Shown piece by piece: positions 3,876 through 23,139 of a stretch of DNA of 23,921 nt. Both the position numbers and the translations under genes were made by a program. The stretch comes from a virus. The stretch is from IMG/VR virus record IMGVR_UViG_3300023170_000170, positions 1 to 23,921 of that record; one strand, written 5' to 3'. Numbering within the stretch: position 1 is the first letter of the stretch; every line of letters starts with the position of its first letter. The notes under the pieces were generated by a model. That model saw only the letters and a program-made list of their open reading frames with translations. It was not told where the DNA came from and ran no database searches.

Positions 3876-5351
3876 TTAGAATGCTACATTCAGCTTTGCG
3901 CTGATTGTGTTGGTAGAAACAAGATCTGTTGAAGCATGACCGTATTCTAACACCAAAGTCTTGTTAGAGATCTGCTTGTTGACTCCAAGATTAAATCTGT
4001 TTGTACCATCAGTATCTCTAATAATACCACCTGAGATACTCTTTGTCAAATTAAACTCCATACCAACGGAAGCGTAACGATACTTATCCTCAGCATCGCC
4101 CACTGCTCTTGCGCTTTGAATGCTGCCAGTTTCAACGTAACCATCCACGTCAGTAACACCACGTGTATAACCTACGATTGGACGAAGTTTCTCACCGTCA
4201 CCTGTCCACTGAACTCTAGCATATTTGTCACTACCCTCTGTGATACCTTTGTTGCTAAAGTCGCCAATGACTCTATCAACTTCGTAGTCCATACTAGTAG
4301 TTGTTAAACTCAAACGCATAGTACCTGAGGCAATGTACTTCTCAGCATGAATGTTAAACATCATACTGTCTACTGTAACTTTACCACTAGTGTTTTCTGC
4401 GCTACCATCTAACTTACCAAAACCTGCACCGAATCCCCAACCACTTTCTAGAGTCTTAGTACCGCCCATAACGATTCCAGTAATGTCACCTGTCATACCA
4501 TTTAGTGCGTTGTTGTTATTCTTTACAAGTTTAATTCCATCAAAGTCAACACCACGATTAGATAACTGCATCATACTATTGATAGTCTTAATTTGATCGA
4601 CTCTCCCAACGAGTGGGTCAAGTGTTGTGGTAGTTGATGTAGATGTACCTAAACTACCATCGCTGTAGATATCCCACGTTGAAGTAGTTTGAGTTCTTGT
4701 TATTGTTTGAACCAATGCCGTTGATGATGCGGCATAGGCAACAACATTACTTGAACCTTGTCCTGTTACGGTAGGTCCACCAGACGCTGACCCAACTGCT
4801 ACCTCGTTGATGTCAAGTATACCATTGTTATTTGCATCACCATCTAAGTCATTCTGGGTAAGAGTAATGGTGAGAGTACGAATAACTTGATCCATTGGTG
4901 CCCACTCTTGTGTTGGAGTACCTGTTGGATAACTCGACTCTGTATCACCTAAAGGAATGTATGTGAATGTATAATCTCCTGGCTGTAGGTTTGCATAGTT
5001 GATACCCTGCCAAGTATACGATTCACCGCCACCATTAGGATCGTCAGGATCGTAGTCAATCAGTTGTGTACCGTCTGACGTAAAGAAGTTTACACCTGAG
5101 ATAAGACCTGCTGGTGAATCTTGCGATAGCAAGTCAAACTCATCTATTTGTGCTGTAAATGTAGTGCCATTGGCACCTTCGATTTTAATTTCTGCTTCAT
5201 TGAATTGAGTATTATCGTGCCACGAACCATACCAAAATGTTAACCCACCATTGCCGTCTCCAACATAGCCAATACTGTTTGTGTGTGCAAACACAGGGGA
5301 TGAGACAAGCGTAACCATAACAAATGCTGCCACGCATTTGAATAGACGCAT
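3876..5351 (-). CDS. phage-encoded autotransporter-like outer-membrane protein, 491 aa
   Basis: Residues 1-22 are a signal peptide ending VFA before HTN. The N-terminal region is a Gly/Asp/Thr-rich beta domain. It includes a Ca-binding-like loop, DLDGDANNNGILDINEV, around residues 168-184. A Ser/Thr-rich linker follows (SLGTSTSTTTTLD). The last 230 residues or so show alternating amphipathic strands and end in ISAKLNVAF, a typical outer-membrane beta-signal with terminal Phe. I infer an exported surface domain plus a beta-barrel. AGGAG lies eight bases before the ATG. No consensus early promoter precedes it; a late-type TAATAAATA lies about 84 bases upstream, and a hairpin follows the gene. 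The role could be surface display, receptor masking or uptake. Confidence 0.75.
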   Translation of the reverse strand: MRLFKCVAAFVMVTLVSSPVFAHTNSIGYVGDGNGGLTFWYGSWHDNTQFNEAEIKIEGANGTTFTAQIDEFDLLSQDSPAGLISGVNFFTSDGTQLIDYDPDDPNGGGESYTWQGINYANLQPGDYTFTYIPLGDTESSYPTGTPTQEWAPMDQVIRTLTITLTQNDLDGDANNNGILDINEVAVGSASGGPTVTGQGSSNVVAYAASSTALVQTITRTQTTSTWDIYSDGSLGTSTSTTTTLDPLVGRVDQIKTINSMMQLSNRGVDFDGIKLVKNNNNALNGMTGDITGIVMGGTKTLESGWGFGAGFGKLDGSAENTSGKVTVDSMMFNIHAEKYIASGTMRLSLTTTSMDYEVDRVIGDFSNKGITEGSDKYARVQWTGDGEKLRPIVGYTRGVTDVDGYVETGSIQSARAVGDAEDKYRYASVGMEFNLTKSISGGIIRDTDGTNRFNLGVNKQISNKTLVLEYGHASTDLVSTNTISAKLNVAF

Positions 5352-5864: not shown

Positions 5865-6066
5865 TATTTCTCACCTTTCTAAAATACATACGCCATAGCG
5901 CAGAACGAATCATACTCGTAATCATAAAGATCAATGCGATAGTTATGTTCTCGAGTATCGTAGGGTGTAGCCCAAACAAAGGAAACACCAACAACTGAAT
6001 AGTTATCCCTAATATGAATCCACTCCCTACGTCTACAATACTTTCAAAGATATCTCTACGTTTCAC
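5851..6066 (-). CDS. two-TM phage membrane protein, 71 aa (GTG start)
   Basis: Two hydrophobic segments are clear: VDVGSGFILGITIQLLVFPLF and ILENITIALIFMITSMI. They are separated by a short loop (GLHPT) and followed by a basic tail (RMYFRKVRN). This shape matches a common small phage inner-membrane family (DUF7220-like, from memory) of unknown function. I chose GTG at 6066 because it overlaps the cytochrome stop as GTGA; a GTG at 6081 is also possible. Neither has a strong ribosome site, so translation is probably coupled. Confidence 0.6.
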   Translation of the reverse strand: MKRRDIFESIVDVGSGFILGITIQLLVFPLFGLHPTILENITIALIFMITSMIRSALWRMYFRKVRNNEAR

Positions 6067-6374
6067 TGACTCAGGATCCACCGTACAGCTTGCGCTGTAT
6101 CTTCTTCGTTGATAGCATTAGGTGGCATCGGAATGGGACCCCACACTCCACCACCGCCATTCATAATCTTCTGCACCAGATAGTCCATATCTGCTTCTGT
6201 GTACTTGGCAGCAACATCTTTAAACGCTGGACCAACCAGTTTCTTATCTACCGCATGACACATGAAGCAGTTACGCTCTTTGAGAATCTTTTCTCTCTGG
6301 AACTGTTCTGCTGGAGTTGTCGCCATGACACTAAACCACAAACACGATAATACTACTGCGCTTAATACTCTCAT
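6063..6374 (-). CDS. periplasmic cytochrome c551-type protein, 103 aa
   Basis: A complete class I c-type cytochrome. Residues 1-18 form a signal peptide. The haem-attachment motif is C36-F-M-C39-H40. The distal ligand is Met83 in the diagnostic WGPIPMPPN stretch, and the protein ends RWILSQ. The LVGPAFKDVAAKY segment also matches bacterial c551 proteins. Mature length (about 85) is normal for the family, and no key residue is missing. It would carry electrons in the periplasm after haem loading by the host Ccm system. The start at 6374 follows AAAGGAGG; an ATG at 6395 lies before that site. It sits among small phage genes, so it looks like an acquired metabolic gene. Confidence 0.9.
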   Translation of the reverse strand: MRVLSAVVLSCLWFSVMATTPAEQFQREKILKERNCFMCHAVDKKLVGPAFKDVAAKYTEADMDYLVQKIMNGGGGVWGPIPMPPNAINEEDTAQAVRWILSQ

Positions 6375-6391
6375 TATACCTCCTTTGAGTT

Positions 6392-6628
6392 TCATCTATT
6401 TCTATTTACATCCCAATAAGATTCGTGATGCTTAAGTTCGTCATTTAACATACCGTACTTATGGCGTAGTTGGCTAGTGAGTCCAAACTTCGTTCGTATC
6501 GCCGCACTCGCTCCTGCACTGGTCATCTGAGTACCAATACCGTCCTCACAAATACGTAGCACTTCTTCTAGAATCCGCACCGCATATTCTTCGTGTCCAT
6601 TAGACTTTTCCCAGAGTTCCTCGATCAT
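6392..6628 (-). CDS. hypothetical protein, 78 aa
   Basis: A helical, soluble protein with no recognised domain. The first half is acidic (AVRILEEVLRICEDGIG) and the second basic (IRTKFGLTSQLRHKYG). GGAAG precedes the ATG, which overlaps the upstream stop (ATGA). Its own end lies 17 bases before the cytochrome start. Function is unknown. Confidence 0.6.
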   Translation of the reverse strand: MIEELWEKSNGHEEYAVRILEEVLRICEDGIGTQMTSAGASAAIRTKFGLTSQLRHKYGMLNDELKHHESYWDVNRNR

Positions 6629-8767: not shown

Positions 8768-8841
8768 TGGAGTGGATGACAGGAATCGAACCTGTATACA
8801 AGGATTTGCAATCCTCTGCATAACCACTCTGCCACATCCAC
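8768..8841 (-). tRNA. tRNA-Cys (GCA)
   Basis: Read on the minus strand: acceptor GTGGATG pairs with CATCCAC; the anticodon stem GAGGA/TCCTT holds loop TTGCAAA with anticodon GCA; the T-arm is CAGGTTCGATTCCTG. The discriminator base is T (U73), characteristic of tRNA-Cys. The 3' CCA is encoded (8768-8770). Confidence 0.92.
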
Positions 8842-8869
8842 ACGCTCCGCTTCAACTTCGTTACTAGGG

Positions 8870-8940
8870 CAGAGGGACAAGGAATCGAACCTCATCTTTC
8901 GGATTTGGAAACCGACGTACTACCATTATACTATCCCTCT
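8870..8940 (-). tRNA. tRNA-Trp (CCA)
   Basis: Acceptor AGAGGGA pairs with TCCCTCT; the D-arm is GTAT/GTAC; the anticodon loop TTCCAAA carries CCA. The T-arm contains GGTTCGATTCC and the discriminator is G. There is one T-T mismatch at the base of the anticodon loop. CCC rather than CCA follows, so the host would have to repair the 3' end. It lies 29 bases upstream of tRNA-Cys. Confidence 0.88.
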
Positions 8941-9089
8941 ACGCTATTCGCTACTACTACTTGATCGTTGTTCTTCGTTGTTCTATCGTTGTTCTATCGG
9001 AAACAACTGGGTCGGGGGTTACGAAGGGCGGGACCCAGTGTGTTCCATCCAAGCCATATACTCCCCCCACCATTCTGGAGGGTACCCCC
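8941..9089. other. gene-free spacer with GC-rich inverted repeat
   Basis: An 8-bp perfect inverted repeat (ACTGGGTC at about 9006-9013, GACCCAGT at about 9032-9039) has an 18-base loop. Nearby are the palindrome GGGTACCC and a G6 run, and tandem copies of cgttgttctat. The spacer is more GC-rich than its surroundings. It separates the tRNAs from the upstream operon and could be a terminator or processing region; no T tract is seen. Confidence 0.5.
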
Positions 9090-14013: not shown

Positions 14014-14478
14014 TTACGCAATTAGTCCCTGCTTATAAACTGTTTTACCGTTCTCTTTCACTGCGGTAAGGATAGATCTTCTATTCTCGCCGTTGTTATT
14101 GTATGAAACATGTACCCAACCAGAGTCAGGAATCCCTGGAGTGTAGAACTCGAGGATAACTTGATCAAATTCTAAGTTGTCTACGATCCACTGAGCCACG
14201 TCAGCGTTTGGAACTCCAGGACACTCAATATCAACTGCCTGTCCCTTGCAGTGCTGTGATCGACTTGAACCACCGACTGCTTCGTTTAGTGCTGGACCAC
14301 GATAGCCACTGTTGATGACTGTTGGACCGAAGTTGTCACGTACCTTCTGAACCACGTTAGCGAACAGAAACTCTGCTGCTTCCATGTGCTCTTCATTAGG
14401 TGTGTTATCGATTCCCATCCGAAGAGCAGTCTGGCTCTTGGTAAACTCTTGTAGCGTAAAATTCTTTGATAGTTTCAT
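14014..14478 (-). CDS. endolysin, M15-family peptidase, 154 aa
   Basis: Full-length peptidase_M15 (VanY/VanX-type) fold: SGYRGPALNEAVGG then SRSQHCKGQAVDIE and SGWVHVSY. Zinc ligands are His76, Asp83 and His123; Glu110 (ILEFY) may be catalytic. It should cleave peptide cross-links of peptidoglycan to release virions. No signal peptide is seen, so it needs a holin or similar to reach the wall. AGGAG lies five bases before the ATG. It is the final gene of the block that contains the EF-hand membrane protein and the curli genes. Confidence 0.88.
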   Translation of the reverse strand: MKLSKNFTLQEFTKSQTALRMGIDNTPNEEHMEAAEFLFANVVQKVRDNFGPTVINSGYRGPALNEAVGGSSRSQHCKGQAVDIECPGVPNADVAQWIVDNLEFDQVILEFYTPGIPDSGWVHVSYNNNGENRRSILTAVKENGKTVYKQGLIA

Positions 14479-14487
14479 TATGTCTCC

Positions 14488-14823
14488 TTAGTCTTTCTTC
14501 TTACCTTTTAAAGCATCAGCACCAAAGAATGCTGCGACCAATGCTGAGATAGCAACAAAGTAGGTTGGCGCAATGTCACCAATGATGTTTGCTGCCTTGT
14601 CTAAACCGAACAGTGATGTTAGGAAGATACCAAAAGGATAGAGTAACATGCCAAACAAAGCAAACCATGTCATCTTTCTCATCGCATCACGTTGTGCGTC
14701 TTGATCTTCAAGTTCTTTACGCTTGAACTCAAGATACATATTTCTCTCGTCTTCAGTTACAACTCCATCACCGTTGGTGTCAGCTGGGTGGTAACCTGCC
14801 TTTTTGATTTCTTCTTCTGCCAT
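14488..14823 (-). CDS. EF-hand plus two-TM membrane protein, possible holin, 111 aa
   Basis: Residues about 15-26 form a canonical EF-hand loop (DTNGDGVVTEDE), so calcium binding is likely. A charged helix follows, then two membrane segments (WFALFGMLLYPFGIFLTSLF; TYFVAISALVAAFFGADAL) and a basic tail. Two TMs, a charged tail and position directly before the endolysin fit a holin or holin regulator, but this is context only. AAAGGAAG precedes the ATG. Confidence 0.68.
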   Translation of the reverse strand: MAEEEIKKAGYHPADTNGDGVVTEDERNMYLEFKRKELEDQDAQRDAMRKMTWFALFGMLLYPFGIFLTSLFGLDKAANIIGDIAPTYFVAISALVAAFFGADALKGKKKD

Positions 14824-15036: not shown

Positions 15037-17106
15037 TCACTTTGTTGTTGCTATAAACACGCCATTCCAATCTTTTGGTAAATCTTGGGTTTGCATGTAC
15101 TCACATCTTTCAATCCACATGTCGTAGTATTTATCGACTTGACCGTCGAAAGAACCTTTTAATTCGTTACACATCTTGATTGCTTGTTTGAACTTTTGAT
15201 CACGATAGAGTTGATGCATCTTATCGTGCCTTTCTTTGTCCTCGTCCCAATCTGCTCTATTCTCACCAAGAACAGTATAGATGCGGATACCGACACTCTT
15301 TCCCTTAACTGCTAACTCGTCTACTTTAAGATAGAAAAAGTCACCTTCAGTAGCATCGTATGTGTTCTCGCCCACTAGCAATAAGCAACCATATTCTTTA
15401 CACTTTGACTCAATACGTGCGGCAGTACTAACAGCATCACCTAGTACATCGTAACTGTGTCTGCTGGTGCTTCCCATTTCACCCAAGTATCCCAGTCCAC
15501 TGTTAATACCAGCACCCATACCAATTGGTGGTCTGCCCTCTGCTGTGATCTTCTCGTTGAACTTCTCAACTGCCCTCAGCATATTGAGACCTGTTTGTAC
15601 CGCACTCTTCGCATGCTCTGGATCATCATTAGGTGCATTGTGTACGTGCATACTGGCGTCACCGATGTACTTGATAACCATACCATCAGCATCTAGCACT
15701 GGTTGCGTGATAGCATCCATGTAGCCATTCATCAATGTTGTGAGTCCCTTCACATCGTCACCGAATGATTCGCCCAACGGAGTAAACCCACGCAAGTCTG
15801 AGAAGCAAATAGATATCTCACGCTTCATGCCGTCTTTGATTAGACTTGGATTTTCCTGCAACATACGAACAACGGTGGGCGAACAGTAGCCAGCAAACTG
15901 TTTCTTGATTGCCTGCTTCTGTTTAAATTCTTCCATGAACCGTAGAAATGCAGTGATTGACCACGTCAAGAACACAGCAAATACTGGGAAGCTCCAGTCT
16001 AACAGCAAGGACTTATCTATAAATGCTTTTCTGGTTACCCAAAATATTCCACCGAGTGAAACTACAATAGAACCGATACCAAAGTACCAGTTCATTCTCA
16101 TAACTACTGCGATTATAATTAGTCCAAGTGCCAACGATACAGTAAGTTCACTGATATCTGACCACCATGGACGACTCATGTTGATTCCGTTAAGCATAGT
16201 GTAGACTGAAGCAGCAACCAAATCATGTGAGTATAGAGTGCCAACTGGAGTAGGTACAGTTGCTTCTAATCCTGATGCTGTTAATGATAGTATAACGATA
16301 CCACCATTGAAGTCTGGTAGATCTTCTAATGAATACTCTTGAACTTTGAAGCGATAGTCAACGTAGATACTACCGTTGCTGTCTGTTTTGATTGTATCAA
16401 ACTGCGGTATGCGTAGTGCCTCAACACCTGCTTCACCGATCTTCATTTGATAACTTGGATCGCCAGCAATAACTCTGATAATTTCCATAGGCAACGACGG
16501 GAATATCCTTGCGCTTTCTGTGTCCTCTTGCGAAGGTATACGTACAACCAGTGGTAGTTTACGCACCACACCATCAGCTTCAGGACTGGTTAACATCATA
16601 CCAACACCGATAGCATTATCACCGATCTCTTTCAGTGGACCAATGGCTTGATCGTAACGGTATAACCAATCTTCCCATCCCTCGCCAATGATAGCCACAC
16701 CACGTGGGACTGGTGTTCCTTTACCGTTTAGTGCTGGTATCTGTCCGACAATAACTGGTGCGTTCTGTAGCAGATCAATAAATGCTGGGTCGCCACCGAA
16801 TCTATCCTCGTCAGCAAACAACATAGGTAGCACAACTAGACCAGCATTTGACTGGAACAATCTGATAATTTGATCAGCCAGCAAGTCACGTGGCCATGGG
16901 AATTGTCCGTACTTATCTAAGGCATCGTTGTCGATAGTTACGACTGATATTAGGATGTCGCTATCTAGACCAATAACTTCCTGCGGTACACTACGCTGAT
17001 GCGTGTCTAGTGCTTTGAGACGAACTACTTGGGAGAACCAAGGATCTTGATAACGTACAGATAAAATTACTAACAATGCAATTAATGCAACCAACCACTT
17101 CTTCAT
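15037..17106 (-). CDS. CHASE2-domain class III adenylate/guanylate cyclase, 689 aa
   Basis: The N-terminal TM (about 4-18) is followed by a CHASE2 extracytoplasmic sensor (about 25-305; DILISVVTIDNDAL, YGQFPWPRDLLA) and three TMs (about 320-390). The cyclase domain is at about 428-610: metal Asp437 (CFSDLRGFT) and Asp483 (KYIGDAS), purine-reading Lys479 and Asp557, Arg564. The transition-state Asn is replaced by Ser560 (VSTAAR instead of VNTAAR), which may lower or alter activity. A helical TPR-like tail follows. It would make cAMP (or cGMP) in response to an envelope signal. The ATG at 17106 has GAAAAGG upstream; the earlier codon is TTG. It follows the FecR and curlin-like genes. Confidence 0.9.
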   Translation of the reverse strand: MKKWLVALIALLVILSVRYQDPWFSQVVRLKALDTHQRSVPQEVIGLDSDILISVVTIDNDALDKYGQFPWPRDLLADQIIRLFQSNAGLVVLPMLFADEDRFGGDPAFIDLLQNAPVIVGQIPALNGKGTPVPRGVAIIGEGWEDWLYRYDQAIGPLKEIGDNAIGVGMMLTSPEADGVVRKLPLVVRIPSQEDTESARIFPSLPMEIIRVIAGDPSYQMKIGEAGVEALRIPQFDTIKTDSNGSIYVDYRFKVQEYSLEDLPDFNGGIVILSLTASGLEATVPTPVGTLYSHDLVAASVYTMLNGINMSRPWWSDISELTVSLALGLIIIAVVMRMNWYFGIGSIVVSLGGIFWVTRKAFIDKSLLLDWSFPVFAVFLTWSITAFLRFMEEFKQKQAIKKQFAGYCSPTVVRMLQENPSLIKDGMKREISICFSDLRGFTPLGESFGDDVKGLTTLMNGYMDAITQPVLDADGMVIKYIGDASMHVHNAPNDDPEHAKSAVQTGLNMLRAVEKFNEKITAEGRPPIGMGAGINSGLGYLGEMGSTSRHSYDVLGDAVSTAARIESKCKEYGCLLLVGENTYDATEGDFFYLKVDELAVKGKSVGIRIYTVLGENRADWDEDKERHDKMHQLYRDQKFKQAIKMCNELKGSFDGQVDKYYDMWIERCEYMQTQDLPKDWNGVFIATTK

Positions 17107-17135
17107 TATAGACCTTTTCAATTCATGTTTTGTAT

Positions 17136-17474
17136 TTATTCAGTTTGAGATATTGACATGTTACAACCAGCGGCAGTCACGCAAGTGCCAGAAACTGAGA
17201 TAGATAAATCACTGGAGGAGTTTTGATTCAAATCTAGATCATATGATCCACCACCGTTTGTCAGATCAACAGTCGCATCGTGACCACCAGATCCTTCTTG
17301 CTTAACCCAAACGTCATGTCCGTTGCCACTCAACGTAACATCTGCGGTATGACTACCAGCGTCTAGTTGCTGAATGGAAATGATAGCACTGCTACCAGTC
17401 AAATCCAGTATCACACTATCAGCATAAACAACTGAATTAATTTTGATTAATAGTAATAACGCTATCGTTCGCAT
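17136..17474 (-). CDS. curlin-like secreted repeat protein 2, 112 aa
   Basis: Signal peptide residues 1-18 (ending VYA before DSV). The mature part has about four repeats of around 22 residues with alternating hydrophobic strands and turns: VILDLTGSSAIISIQQ, HDVWVKQEGSGGHDATVDL, SYDLDLNQNSSSDLSISV, ending CNMSISQTE. The Gln/Asn/Gly/Ser positions resemble CsgA/CsgB repeats. Two Cys close to the C-terminus could form a disulfide. It is probably a substrate or nucleator for the CsgG pore. The start overlaps the FecR gene end by 38 bases. Confidence 0.7.
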   Translation of the reverse strand: MRTIALLLLIKINSVVYADSVILDLTGSSAIISIQQLDAGSHTADVTLSGNGHDVWVKQEGSGGHDATVDLTNGGGSYDLDLNQNSSSDLSISVSGTCVTAAGCNMSISQTE

Positions 17475-18489
17475 TTTCTTTTGTATGTAAAGTTACTGGC
17501 ACTCCCGCCTGATTCAATATCAATTGAGTAGAAGAATCACCATCCAAAGTAATACTCACAATCCTACTGTCCACGTTTCTATAGATTATCCAGTCACCGT
17601 CCTTAACGATTTGTGTATTGCCACCTTCAAATGTTCCAGGTTGTATTGGGTTTGTTGTAAATCTCGCAGTCTCTTGAAGTAATTTAGAATTCAGCATTTC
17701 TAAAATATTTGCCAATAAATCAACATCAAGTAAGTTAAAATCTAACCTAGTAAATACAAGTTCATCTTCATCCAGTTCGTTCTCAGCAAGCAAGTCTATA
17801 TCAAGTTCATTGAAGTCTAACATAGACTTTTCTTCGTCGCCCTTCTCTTCTTCTTTTTCTTTTGGTTTCCTAACAATCAACAAGTTGTTTATCTGCGCCT
17901 CAGATAAATCTAATATGACTGGCTGTGATGGTGCCTTTTCTCTAAAGCCAACGACTGTGGCTTGGAATGCTTGATTGAGAATAACTTGACCGACATCTGA
18001 TTCAACAGATATTTCGCCGACTGTTCCGTCAGCATTTGGTAACAGGATAACTAGCGACTTACCTATCTCGTCAACTGTCATACTGAACGCAGTACCACGC
18101 ACACCAATCCTAGCAGTTGGTGTTTGTATGTCTACATTTTGTGCGTTGTTTTTAGCAATCTTACCACTGGCGTACTTGACTGTACCCAGTCCTACCTTCA
18201 TCTTAAGTTTGCTTTTCTTTGGATTGGCTCCATCATAAACAAAGTCATCAATCACCATCTTGCTGTGCTTTTCAATTTGCACTTTAGTATCGTCGTTAAA
18301 TCCGATACCAATAATACCGTCACCTGTACGGATGTCGTCAAACATCTCGACACCCGTATTTTTCTTTATCTTTATCTTATCTTTGTCCCTTACTAACTGC
18401 GCTGGTCCAGTTTGTTTTTCAACTGTACCAATCGCAGCATAAGAAACATCAATCAGAAATAGTAATAGTAACGCTAGAACTCGAGCCAT
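17437..18489 (-). CDS. FecR-domain protein with curlin-like C-terminal tail, 350 aa
   Basis: Signal peptide residues 1-18 (ending SYA). The FecR domain spans about 40-150: VEMFDDIRTGDGIIGIGF ... KVQIEKHSKMVID ... QTPTARIGVRGTAFSM. The centre has a Lys/Glu linker and two Leu/Asp-rich near-repeats (LDFNELDIDLLAE, LDFNLLDVDLLAN). The last 45 residues (VSITLDGDSSTQLILNQAG ... SVITINQN) look like a curlin repeat pair. FecR domains sense or transmit envelope state, and such genes often neighbour CHASE2-cyclases. I infer a periplasmic partner of the cyclase that may contact the amyloid through its tail. It overlaps both neighbours by about 40 bases. Confidence 0.82.
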   Translation of the reverse strand: MARVLALLLLFLIDVSYAAIGTVEKQTGPAQLVRDKDKIKIKKNTGVEMFDDIRTGDGIIGIGFNDDTKVQIEKHSKMVIDDFVYDGANPKKSKLKMKVGLGTVKYASGKIAKNNAQNVDIQTPTARIGVRGTAFSMTVDEIGKSLVILLPNADGTVGEISVESDVGQVILNQAFQATVVGFREKAPSQPVILDLSEAQINNLLIVRKPKEKEEEKGDEEKSMLDFNELDIDLLAENELDEDELVFTRLDFNLLDVDLLANILEMLNSKLLQETARFTTNPIQPGTFEGGNTQIVKDGDWIIYRNVDSRIVSITLDGDSSTQLILNQAGVPVTLHTKENANDSVITINQN

Positions 18490-19129
18490 CTGTAGTCATA
18501 TCCACTGTACTGGCTTCAGCGCCACCTTGCGTTACGCTAATAGTACTGCTACTGCCAGTGTGATTAATAGTTGTATCATGTTGTGCTGAACCACTCTTGG
18601 TCGCACTTACTGTGTTTGTGCTTCCACTGATATCAATGTCAGTTATCTTATTAGTAATACTTGCTGCAGTACTGTTTTCGTTAACTGTGACAGTATTACT
18701 GTCGCCAGTGATATCAAGTGTTATTGTGGCATCTTCAGTTGCTGCTGTTGTTCCAACATTAGTTGTTATATCATTTGAATCGCCAGTAATATTTTCTGTG
18801 TAGTTGACACCATCAGAACCTGCGCTGGTTCCAATAGTTAATGTGCTCTCATTACTACTACCTTGTTGGTTAATTGTGATGTCTGCGTCTGCGCCAGTAA
18901 CATCATAATCAATCGTGTTGCTCGAGCCAACCTGATCGATATCCATAGTAGTTGTTGCACCATCACTAGCAGAATCAGTCGTACTAGATCCAACTCTGTT
19001 GCCTGAACCATCTTGGTTAATGTTGATGGTGGCTGATGAGCCAACTTGATCTATATAAATTAAATTGTCTGCTGTTGCAAAATTAATAAAGAATGTCAGT
19101 ACAGCAGCAATAGCTACTTTTACATTCAT
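18449..19129 (-). CDS. curlin-like secreted repeat protein 1, 226 aa
   Basis: Signal peptide residues 1-20. About ten repeats of around 20 residues follow, each a strand-turn-strand of the type I-x-Q-x-G-S-S-x-x-I: IDQVGSSATININQDGSG, MDIDQVGSSNTIDYDVTG, ITINQQGSSNESTLTIG, then ITGDSN and SGSTN versions. This is the curlin (CsgA) pattern, though Thr- and Asp-rich and lacking Cys. It is a candidate functional amyloid exported by CsgG. GGAGAAG precedes the ATG, which directly follows the CsgG stop codon. Confidence 0.78.
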   Translation of the reverse strand: MNVKVAIAAVLTFFINFATADNLIYIDQVGSSATININQDGSGNRVGSSTTDSASDGATTTMDIDQVGSSNTIDYDVTGADADITINQQGSSNESTLTIGTSAGSDGVNYTENITGDSNDITTNVGTTAATEDATITLDITGDSNTVTVNENSTAASITNKITDIDISGSTNTVSATKSGSAQHDTTINHTGSSSTISVTQGGAEASTVDMTTDGSSSSVTITISD

Positions 19130-19894
19130 TTACTTCTCCTCGTAATCCCAGTAACCTCTTTCCTTACCTTGCTTCGCTAACTCTATGACTGCCTGTTGAA
19201 CTGCCCTTCGTACAGCGTAGTTAACTGGTTCATTTGTTGATGTTCCAGATTCAATCTCTAATACTTTAGTTCCTTGATCGTAAAATTTAAAAATGTTGAT
19301 ACCCACACTGGTGCTCAATATAGTTTTTTCTGTGCTAACATTTAACAAGATATCACCTGTTAACACACTCACTGCTCGTAGACCAACGGTAACTATATCA
19401 CACCGCCATTGACCTGTTGGTCCGATTCCCATAATCCTTGCGCCAGCTCCTCCAGTAAACATATTTGTATCATAACCAATTATACCTCCCTCAATAATAA
19501 TACCAGCGAACTTTAGAGCACCAAGATCTTTATTCTCGTCTGCCTCTTGTCTTGCATTTCTTATAATCTGCCGTTCTTTAATCAAATTATCTAAATTAGT
19601 TCTCTCAACAACGTCAAAAAAGTTTCCATTACTTAACGACATCAAAGCATCTATCAAATAAACTTCTCCACCCTGCGTCACTGCCGTACTAATATTTGCT
19701 ATATTGTCAGCTGGCTTTCGTTGACCAGTTTTATCTAAGAAACTATACACAGCAACAGTAACTGGTTTATTGCTCCCTATATTTGGAAACTCTTTCAGTT
19801 TGTCTTCTGTCTGCGTCTCAGACAACTTTGGTTCCTCCACATATTTCGTAGTGGCGCAACCAGCTAACAATAAAACAAGTAACAATATTTTCAT
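19130..19894 (-). CDS. csgG: CsgG-family curli secretion pore lipoprotein, 254 aa
   Basis: Outer-membrane nonameric pore of type VIII secretion. Lipoprotein signal LLLAG-C13. Conserved CsgG segments are visible in order: VTVAVYSFLDKTGQRKP, STAVTQGG, VERTNLDNLIKERQIIR, IIIEGGIIGYDTN, GGAGARIMGIGP, AVSVLTGDILLNVSTEKTI and GTSTNEPVNYAVRRAV, ending GYWDYEEK. The last 20 or so residues of E. coli CsgG are missing. In the constriction loop the E. coli SNF is NI here and the Tyr is not conserved. The ATG at 19894 follows the CsgF stop by one base; there is no ribosome site, so translation is coupled. Confidence 0.93.
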   Translation of the reverse strand: MKILLLVLLLAGCATTKYVEEPKLSETQTEDKLKEFPNIGSNKPVTVAVYSFLDKTGQRKPADNIANISTAVTQGGEVYLIDALMSLSNGNFFDVVERTNLDNLIKERQIIRNARQEADENKDLGALKFAGIIIEGGIIGYDTNMFTGGAGARIMGIGPTGQWRCDIVTVGLRAVSVLTGDILLNVSTEKTILSTSVGINIFKFYDQGTKVLEIESGTSTNEPVNYAVRRAVQQAVIELAKQGKERGYWDYEEK

Positions 19895-19895
19895 A

Positions 19896-20339
19896 TTAAA
19901 AAGCAAATTGAGCAACAGGTATTTCTACAACAGTTTTTGACCCATCCGTTTGTGTAACATTAAGAGTAACCATATCATCAGTCATTTCATATGATATAGT
20001 ATTTCCCAACAAATCTATTGTCCCTGTTTCCTGTGGATTTTCTCCAAATAACTTATCGCTGATCTGCTTACTCAACTCAGCGTATATTCTACTTTCCAAA
20101 TTAGCAAGAAATTTATTTACGTTAGTATTTTTTGCTTCACGTTCTGCTTCTCTTAAATCCGACTCAATCTTTGACTCTATATCCTTCTTTCTCTGATGTG
20201 TCAAGTTCTCAATAGTCAACACATGACTACTGTATCCTATTCCGTTGAAAGCTGGCGACTTAAATTGATATACAAGATCACCTGCAAAACAATTAGTCGT
20301 CGCTATCAGAAGTATCGTTAGAAGGTTTCTTTTTCTCAT
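19896..20339 (-). CDS. csgF: CsgF-family curli assembly protein, 147 aa
   Basis: Signal peptide residues 1-19 (FA before GDL). The mature N-terminus LVYQFKSPAFNG matches the CsgF segment that inserts into the CsgG pore (F.F..P.FGG). A long charged helical middle follows (ESKIESDLREAEREAK; LANLESRIYAELSKQI), then the strand end TISYEMTDDMVTLNVTQTDG, as in CsgF. It couples substrate release with assembly at the cell surface. It precedes csgG. The start lies inside the end of the holin-like gene (47-base overlap). Confidence 0.88.
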   Translation of the reverse strand: MRKRNLLTILLIATTNCFAGDLVYQFKSPAFNGIGYSSHVLTIENLTHQRKKDIESKIESDLREAEREAKNTNVNKFLANLESRIYAELSKQISDKLFGENPQETGTIDLLGNTISYEMTDDMVTLNVTQTDGSKTVVEIPVAQFAF

Positions 20340-20565
20340 TTTCTCTTATTGCCAGTATTACGTCAACTTTTTGATTAAGTCTTATCAAGTCATTATCTAA
20401 CATTCTAATTCTGTCGATTAAAGCAATCAATGTTACATTTGCTTGACTAGTTACTGGATCAATTTCCTTAGTAACCCATTGCCACACATAGTAAATAAAA
20501 TATCCTAGACCACCTGCAGCAATAATTGGAAATCCGTACTGATTAATTAGTCCTGCGATATCCAT
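20293..20565 (-). CDS. holin-like single-TM protein B, 90 aa
   Basis: N-terminal TM (INQYGFPIIAAGGLGYFIYY), then an amphipathic helix (LIALIDRIRMLDNDLIRLNQ), and a charged tail (NEKKKPSNDTSDSDD). The shape matches YvrJ/BhlA-type small holin-like proteins and the paralogue at 20727-21002 (GFPI.AA...GYF, then LD.R....D.IR...KV). Its ATG follows the 53-aa stop directly. It overlaps CsgF by 47 bases. Confidence 0.62.
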   Translation of the reverse strand: MDIAGLINQYGFPIIAAGGLGYFIYYVWQWVTKEIDPVTSQANVTLIALIDRIRMLDNDLIRLNQKVDVILAIRENEKKKPSNDTSDSDD

Positions 20566-20727
20566 TTACAATGCCAACCCATAGATTAAGCCAAGTACCA
20601 ATCCAGATACAAATCCAGACAGCAATGCTCCTACGACTTCGCTAGTAAAATATGTTGGTTGATTTTTGAGCCAAACTTGCGTGGCTTGGTTTTGATTCTC
20701 AAGCCATCCTTCTTTAAAGAATTTCAT
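20566..20727 (-). CDS. single-TM protein between the holin-like paralogues, 53 aa
   Basis: A polar, Gln/Asn-rich N-terminus (MKFFKEGWLENQNQATQVWL) is followed by a Gly-rich membrane segment (VVGALLSGFVSGLVLGLIYG) with small-residue spacing that favours helix packing. GGAGAG precedes the ATG, which overlaps the upstream stop by one base, and the stop abuts the next ATG. No family is recognised; pore or pinholin behaviour is possible. Confidence 0.6.
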   Translation of the reverse strand: MKFFKEGWLENQNQATQVWLKNQPTYFTSEVVGALLSGFVSGLVLGLIYGLAL

Positions 20728-21002
20728 CAGTCTCTCCTGGCGTCGGACTGCTCGGCTCTCGCTATTCTATCAAGATCAGGTGGAATCTTTAATGCGTGAC
20801 TAACCTTCGTGTCAATGCGAATGACATCGTGGTTCATCGTTGCAACTCTTTTGTCTAATGCCATGATAATACCCTTCATGCCATTAACCGACCCAGTTAC
20901 ACCTGCTAGAATAAATTTTAGTGTGAGGAAAACAAAGTATCCTGCAGCGCATGCTGCAGCAATCGGAAAACCCACCTCAGCGACGAGATTCAAGAACTCC
21001 AT
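20727..21002 (-). CDS. holin-like single-TM protein A, 91 aa
   Basis: TM near residues 10-34 (VGFPIAAACAAGYFVFLTLK), then a helix with MALDKRVATMNHDVIRIDTK and a charged tail (RIARAEQSDARRD). It aligns with the neighbouring 90-aa protein, so the two are probably ancient duplicates. The context (CsgGF downstream, endolysin at the end of the block) supports a lysis or envelope role. The ribosome site is weak. Confidence 0.62.
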   Translation of the reverse strand: MEFLNLVAEVGFPIAAACAAGYFVFLTLKFILAGVTGSVNGMKGIIMALDKRVATMNHDVIRIDTKVSHALKIPPDLDRIARAEQSDARRD

Positions 21003-22560: not shown

Positions 22561-23139
22561 TTAGAACTTAACTTGTACAGTTGTACCACCGATTAGGTGC
22601 TCTTTTTGCCAATCACCGTCTTCACCTGCCGTCAAATACTCAACGAATGGTGTAAGTTTGAGATTTGGAGCGATAGCAATATCGTAACCTGCTTGCCACT
22701 TGACGTCATCAATCTTCATGTCGCCTGTTTTGCCAGCACCGAAAGTCCAACGTGGTTGCATTTTTAACCATGCTCCACCATATTCTGCCTTTACAATACC
22801 ACGATATCTCCAATTATCATCTTTACTTCCCTCGAAATATCGATACTCAATTCTGTGCGCAAGACTAATTGGACCTGCGTTAAAAACTTTGTGTGTTAAC
22901 TTTGGACGAATCTCAGTATCTGTACCGTCCTCAGCAAGTCTAAGCGCACCAGTAAGATTAGGTGCTAATTTGTATGTCACTTCAGCGTGATCATAGTCGT
23001 CGTCAGCATATGTTCTGATTTCTAGTCCATATGACTCACCTTGGAATTTAAAATTGTTTTCCATGGTTTGCCAGTCATCTTCAGCATGAACTGAAGACAC
23101 GAGTATTAATGCTGCGAAAAGTGTCAATAGTTGTTTCAT
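22561..23139 (-). CDS. phage-encoded outer-membrane beta-barrel (porin-like), 192 aa
   Basis: Signal peptide residues 1-19 (VHA before EDD). The mature protein alternates amphipathic strands with short turns throughout (YGLEIRTYADDDYDHAEVTY; LAHRIEYRYFEGSKDDNWRY; WQAGYDIAIAPNLKLTPFVE) and ends GGTTVQVKF, a beta-signal with terminal Phe. Length suggests 10-12 strands. It may alter host permeability, block superinfection or aid release; none is shown. AAGGAG lies five bases before the ATG. It has a dedicated terminator, an upstream hairpin and a possible late promoter. Confidence 0.78.
   Translation of the reverse strand: MKQLLTLFAALILVSSVHAEDDWQTMENNFKFQGESYGLEIRTYADDDYDHAEVTYKLAPNLTGALRLAEDGTDTEIRPKLTHKVFNAGPISLAHRIEYRYFEGSKDDNWRYRGIVKAEYGGAWLKMQPRWTFGAGKTGDMKIDDVKWQAGYDIAIAPNLKLTPFVEYLTAGEDGDWQKEHLIGGTTVQVKF

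Follow-up and report, generated by a model that had tools for sequence, protein, structure and literature searches.

What use would a bacterial virus have for a curli (type VIII) secretion system supplied with fibre proteins of its own? The question is raised by 23.9 kb of sequence from a marine-type phage, a fragment of a viral record (IMG/VR record IMGVR_UViG_3300023170_000170, positions 1 to 23,921; hereafter the window), in which an earlier inspection of the letters without database searches (the sequence-only reading) had proposed a phage-borne module of this kind. Pfam matches, gene order and membership of curlin families bear the proposal out, and we consider it probable, at roughly 0.6, that the infected cell exports curli-like fibre proteins through this operon and that a signalling pair is attached to it. 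The phage module is known here from its sequence; export is well supported by the anatomy of the operon, and the signalling and the benefit to the phage are what we infer.

Six genes, from CsgF to a CHASE2-cyclase, lie tightly packed on the minus strand. Five of them occupy the positions within 17136-20339 that had been claimed for them, as the list of open reading frames (ORFs) confirms, but the operon exceeds that interval, running on to the cyclase and taking in two small membrane proteins upstream. Read from 21002 to 15037, the order is as follows, CurA and CurB denoting curlin-repeat proteins 1 and 2.

20727..21002, minus strand: small membrane protein 2, 91 residues, paralogue of protein 1 (phrog_18771 E=1e-35; weak holin-like match, phrog_4898 E=0.003)
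20566..20727, minus strand: 53-residue protein with a single transmembrane segment, between the two paralogues (ORF and hydropathy)
20293..20565, minus strand: small membrane protein 1, 90 residues, at the position where the literature has a 'histidine kinase' (phrog_18771 E=8e-34)
19896..20339, minus strand: CsgF, 147 residues, signal peptide, conserved N-terminal motif FKSPAFNGIGYSSHVL (Pfam PF10614 E=1.6e-17)
19130..19915, minus strand: CsgG outer-membrane secretion pore, 261 residues, lipobox LAGC (Pfam PF03783 E=1.1e-49)
18449..19129, minus strand: CurA, 226 residues, signal peptide, candidate major fibre subunit (Curlin_rpt E=4.5e-4; NCBIfam CsgA E=2.7e-8)
17437..18489, minus strand: secreted FecR-domain protein with a curlin-like C-terminal strand, ending VITINQN (Pfam FecR E=1.4e-8)
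17136..17474, minus strand: CurB, 112 residues, conserved C-terminal Cys pair (Curlin_rpt alone E=0.21; family match)
15037..17121, minus strand: CHASE2-adenylate/guanylate cyclase, 694 residues, with which the operon ends (CHASE2 E=1.7e-32, Guanylate_cyc E=6e-18)

Overlaps of 20-47 bp join the small protein to csgF, CsgF to CsgG, CurA to FecR and FecR to CurB, and together with the gene order they imply a single transcription unit. The 53-residue protein is present in the closest relatives only. The T4-type late promoter TATAAATA has no copy in the window.

Membership of the curli system rests on a lipoprotein pore, CsgF and curlin-repeat substrates encoded beside the pore. CsgF and CsgG held up in the profile searches at the E-values listed above; CsgG also matches the Escherichia coli CsgG structures (E=2e-44), its lipobox Cys is invariant in 19 homologues, and the N-terminal motif of CsgF is kept in phage homologues. 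The CsgE gate is missing, as are CsgC and CsgD, in agreement with the sequence-only reading: csgE is absent both from the window and from a sister contig of 49.5 kb, and it gave no match above the cut-off in 14 further records, two isolate genomes among them, and neither CsgC nor LuxR-type (CsgD-like) domains were found in the sister contig or in phages HTVC008M and Melnitz. Because alphaproteobacterial curli normally lack csgE (PMC3521004), its absence does not exclude the module from the curli systems.

Both repeat proteins proved to be curlin-like, as had been proposed. CurA scores 20.5 bits, slightly below the Curlin_rpt cut-off of 20.7 bits, and CurB is accepted in spite of its poor individual match because 22 of the 25 members of its family match Curlin_rpt (best E=2.5e-25). 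The strand motif zxzxQ, where z is hydrophobic, occurs five times in CurA and four times in CurB, against 0.27 and 0.29 expected from shuffled sequences, an excess of about 10- to 20-fold; across homologues the counts are 4.7 against 0.6 and 7.5 against 1.1. The AlphaFold2 model of CurA (predicted local distance difference test score, pLDDT, 86; predicted template modelling score, pTM, 0.82) is a confident strand-turn-strand repeat. In CurB, C98 and C104 are invariant, and the C-terminal Cys pair is found also in the curlin adjoining csgG of an alphaproteobacterium (L220). CurB varies in length, from 112 residues in the window to 341 in Melnitz, 442 in HTVC008M and up to about 485 elsewhere. 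In some second curlins the repeats are preceded by a large N-terminal domain (L050:10638-11963, which is HTVC008M; L032:6836-8290; L037:8035-9489; others are similar), and the sole PA14 match of the family scan (2.7e-6) is probably the HTVC008M protein, whose long extra N-terminal domain would then be PA14. Such a domain would put a binding domain on display on the fibre.

The arrangement is widely conserved. Searches with CsgG and FecR recovered 49 and at least 569 viral loci, respectively, and the gene order recurs in 106 distinct viral loci, where CsgF adjoins CsgG in 97 of 101, CsgG adjoins CurA in 94 of 96 and CurA adjoins FecR in 88 of 92, with a median CurA-FecR overlap of 43 bp. CsgG lies upstream of FecR in all 87 viral loci scored, and the cyclase lies downstream of FecR in 53 of the 57 phage loci with enough sequence. 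Signal-peptide-like N-termini are present in CurA (106/106), CsgG (104/104), FecR (104/105) and CsgF (100/102), as compared with 35% of other ORFs. CsgF, CsgG, CurA and FecR are under purifying selection, amino acid replacements being much rarer than silent changes: ratios of nonsynonymous to synonymous change (dN/dS) against the closest relatives are about 0.04-0.07, with CurA at about 0.04, although these are rough values given silent sites near saturation, and CurB and the small proteins are too saturated for measurement. The T4-type capsid gene gp23 occurs in 10 of 18 records examined, in some cases on contigs of 221-338 kb. Phage-type curli modules were also seen on short contigs in bacterial bins (L053-L057 and L063; metagenome-assembled genomes of Flavobacteriaceae, Rhodobacteraceae, Pirellulales and Pelagibacter); these are probably mis-binned phage contigs, and modules so placed could pass for bacterial curli.

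All 27 aligned copies of the FecR protein match the FecR family, and the phage proteins have the FecR domain directly after the signal peptide and no later transmembrane segment, so that the protein is predicted to be secreted without a cytoplasmic part. The cytoplasmic N-terminal part and membrane segment by which an iron-transport regulator reaches its sigma factor are lacking, which makes a classical transmembrane anti-sigma role impossible; the iron-regulator label was rejected on this topology. The curlin-like tail noted in the sequence-only reading is weak in the window sequence alone (two zxzxQ motifs against 0.26 expected, p=0.013) and is substantiated by its relatives: among 98 phage FecR proteins that are distinct and complete, 91 have a terminal zxzxQ strand, as against 30 of 1579 other ORFs (1.9%). 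The consensus of this strand is NxIxIxQ, and the copies that depart from it still end in a variant, for example IDITIQ or TTIKQ. That reading had also cast the set as containing a sensor and a nucleator; the genes are present, but these roles are putative, CurB being a repeat protein of variable length and FecR no classical iron sensor.

Comparison with bacteria indicates where the two halves of the module belong. Among 74 loci of bacterial FecR relatives, none has csg or curlin neighbours, a cyclase match lies within the locus in 21, and the curlin-type end is missing apart from two chance-like matches. Against a background of 117 CHASE2 genes per approximately 199 Mb (49 of these genomes), or about 0.01 expected per 18 kb, cyclases occur near these relatives some 25- to 40-fold above expectation, in a sample biased by its selection for similarity to the phage protein and with one of the 21 (L065) possibly lacking CHASE2. 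Conversely, five alphaproteobacterial csgF loci (L219-L223) all encode CsgF and CsgG, and four of them encode homologous curlins, matched by the phage profiles with E down to 3e-14. Alphaproteobacterial csg operons resemble the phage operon in having no CsgE, CsgC or CsgD, but these five loci have neither FecR nor a CHASE2 cyclase. As bacterial FecR relatives adjoin cyclases and not csg genes, and the csg loci examined lack FecR, the most economical interpretation is a phage module in which a curli exporter has been united with a FecR-CHASE2 signalling pair, FecR having gained a fibre-like end. A related pair is known from Burkholderia, where an operon (BiofilmReg) encoding a secreted FecR-domain protein next to a CHASE2 receptor controls biofilm (PMC5192318). 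There a histidine kinase serves as the receptor, and the FecR protein includes LysM; the bacterial pairs have no curli genes, and the relatives examined are without a curlin-like C-terminus. The phage receptor combines a CHASE2 domain with a class III cyclase bearing the metal-binding Asp.

The suggestion that the full set might be undescribed did not survive comparison with the literature. Zaragoza-Solas (2020) reported CsgF and CsgG in pelagimyophages (PMC7029224), and Wittmers (2022) published the same order, with curlins, FecR, a second curlin and a cyclase, in Podoviridae and Myoviridae pelagiphages, along with module transcripts in ocean metatranscriptomes (PMC9599517). The module is also annotated in HTVC008M and Melnitz. 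The published order HK-CsgF-CsgG-CsgA/B-FecR-CsgA/B-AC is found in the window, and the Wittmers system likewise has one or two 'HK' (histidine kinase) genes and no CsgE, CsgC or CsgD; the window differs in coming from another phage and in its very short second curlin. HTVC008M (KC465899; PMC7029224) and Melnitz (MZ577098; PMC9004378) have syntenic operons with CsgG proteins 42-46% identical to that of the window, and no near-DNA match of the window was found among phage records. Three points go beyond the passages of PMC9599517 that were consulted, namely the curlin strand of FecR, the non-kinase nature of 'HK' and the FecR-CHASE2 pairing.

With regard to 'HK', a histidine kinase has a phospho-accepting His and an ATPase domain, a combination that the approximately 90-residue membrane proteins do not show. 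Their Pfam matches include no kinase domain, and the sole candidate phospho-His is replaced by Asn in 75 of 80 copies of paralogue 1 and in about 19 of 78 of paralogue 2. A kinase identity was rejected on these grounds; the equation of the small proteins with the published 'HK' is based on their position and on a comment in that paper about the shortness and divergence of HK and CsgA/B (PMC9599517). In some loci the pair is not found ahead of csgF but beyond the cyclase, on the other strand (L016, L026, L032, L047, L158 and others), so the small proteins are linked to the module and are not always in its transcript.

In the reading that we prefer, curlins, CsgF, CsgG and FecR, all of which bear export signals, would be carried out of the cytoplasm by Sec, and a CsgG9-CsgF pore would release the curlins with no need of CsgE, as in alphaproteobacteria (PMC3521004); apart from the two curlins, no gene beside the pore resembles a substrate. 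Curli-like fibres would assemble on the infected cell, the terminal strand of FecR may bind curlin subunits or fibre ends, and its FecR domain could contact the periplasmic CHASE2 domain of the cyclase, which would report the state of the fibre or of export as cyclic nucleotide inside the cell. The most plausible benefit would be that neighbouring cells or virions are held together, or that the surface is masked against competing phages. Several points weigh against this account. A CsgE or CsgH-like gate or chaperone was not identified; the CurA model has no significant match among solved structures (Foldseek PDB, best E=0.056; CsgA fibril E=5.3; nothing below E=0.001 for CurA or FecR); and the C-terminal half of FecR yields no confident model. 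The transition-state Asn of the cyclase is replaced by Ser in this clade (GDAVSTAAR), which makes its activity uncertain, and no cyclic-nucleotide target was found within the window. Furthermore, in the cultures that Buchholz et al. (2022) infected with Melnitz, clumping was not observed (PMC9004378), and the literature found on phage curli modules contains no amyloid, fibre or cyclic-nucleotide measurement. A more specific proposal, in which the curlin-stranded FecR measures periplasmic or fibre curlin and drives the cyclase so that the cyclic-nucleotide level tracks export, is one that we advance tentatively and would not expect to hold in full. If true, it would to our knowledge provide the first signalling protein that reads a functional amyloid via a built-in copy of its strand.

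Other explanations account for parts of the same evidence. FecR might serve as a CsgB-like nucleator or anchor of the fibre, with the cyclase a separate passenger: its terminal strand resembles the end of a curlin repeat, its FecR domain is predicted to be all-beta, and its gene lies between two curlin genes. We regard this as unlikely, given that in bacteria devoid of curli the relatives of FecR are paired with CHASE2 cyclases and that the cyclase follows in 53 of 57 phage loci. Alternatively, the CsgG pore could be repurposed for lysis timing in the manner of a pinholin or secretin, with the curlins incidental, as proposed for Melnitz on the ground that csgA/csgB are missing (PMC9004378). 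Two curlin-repeat proteins are, however, listed in the Melnitz record as deposited, one on each side of the FecR gene, so that this ground falls. An M15 endolysin (14014-14478) and a protein with two transmembrane segments (14488-14823) do follow the cyclase in the window, and the two small upstream proteins are weakly holin-like (phrog_4898 E=0.003-0.006). However, curlins adjoin CsgG in 94 of 96 loci, CsgG is an outer-membrane lipoprotein and no inner-membrane holin, and the M15 endolysin gene was found nowhere but in the window and the sister contig, tail genes following the operon in HTVC008M and Melnitz. A lysis cassette defined by synteny was rejected, the adjoining endolysin being limited to this phage population among the loci examined, and a role in lysis timing seems improbable.

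Uptake of nutrients or iron complexes through an open pore, with FecR as iron sensor, was suggested in PMC7029224 and PMC9599517, and the FecR domain does resemble the signalling domain of the anti-sigma regulator PupR and other anti-sigma proteins (Foldseek probability 1.00; root-mean-square deviation from PupR 2.9). We consider it very improbable, because the phage FecR is secreted without a cytoplasmic anti-sigma part, the window proteins that were scanned include no recognisable TonB-dependent receptor or sigma factor, and two conserved curlins, CurA under clear purifying selection, would be left unexplained.

Phages that make their hosts build surface fibres would change how aquatic bacteria touch, aggregate and become co-infected, even in lineages that have no curli themselves. 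The abundance of FecR matches indicates that the module is common, and it occurs in T4-like contigs of up to 338 kb. The reinterpretation of FecR provides a testable link from fibre export to cyclic-nucleotide signalling, and two misleading labels, iron regulator and histidine kinase, can be dropped.

Elsewhere in the window, about 10 kb from the operon, lies the gene of a secreted protein that matches no Pfam family and whose C-terminus resembles an outer-membrane beta-barrel (3876-5351, minus strand). Its homologues are found inside the curli operon of other phages, where they either separate CsgF from CsgG or follow FecR or the second curlin (L018:9913-11805, L021:10452-12419, L040:10926-12824; also L136, L138, L150, L152, L159, L172, L173, L177, L187, L191 and L200), and it seems to be a recurring partner of the module that has gone unreported. 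The protein preceding the M15-type endolysin (together 14014-14823, minus strand) bears an EF-hand-like DTNGDGVVTEDE motif and has homologues among the tail and baseplate genes of HTVC008M and Melnitz. Rfam found no riboswitch in the window, its sole matches being two tRNA genes, Cys (gca) and Trp (cca), at 8768-8941 on the minus strand. Two further secreted products are encoded on the minus strand, a cytochrome c (6063-6395; Pfam 3e-8; phrog_36206, for which PHROG assigns no function) and a small beta-barrel porin-like protein (22561-23139), a further envelope protein of the phage, with a weak DUF2490 match.

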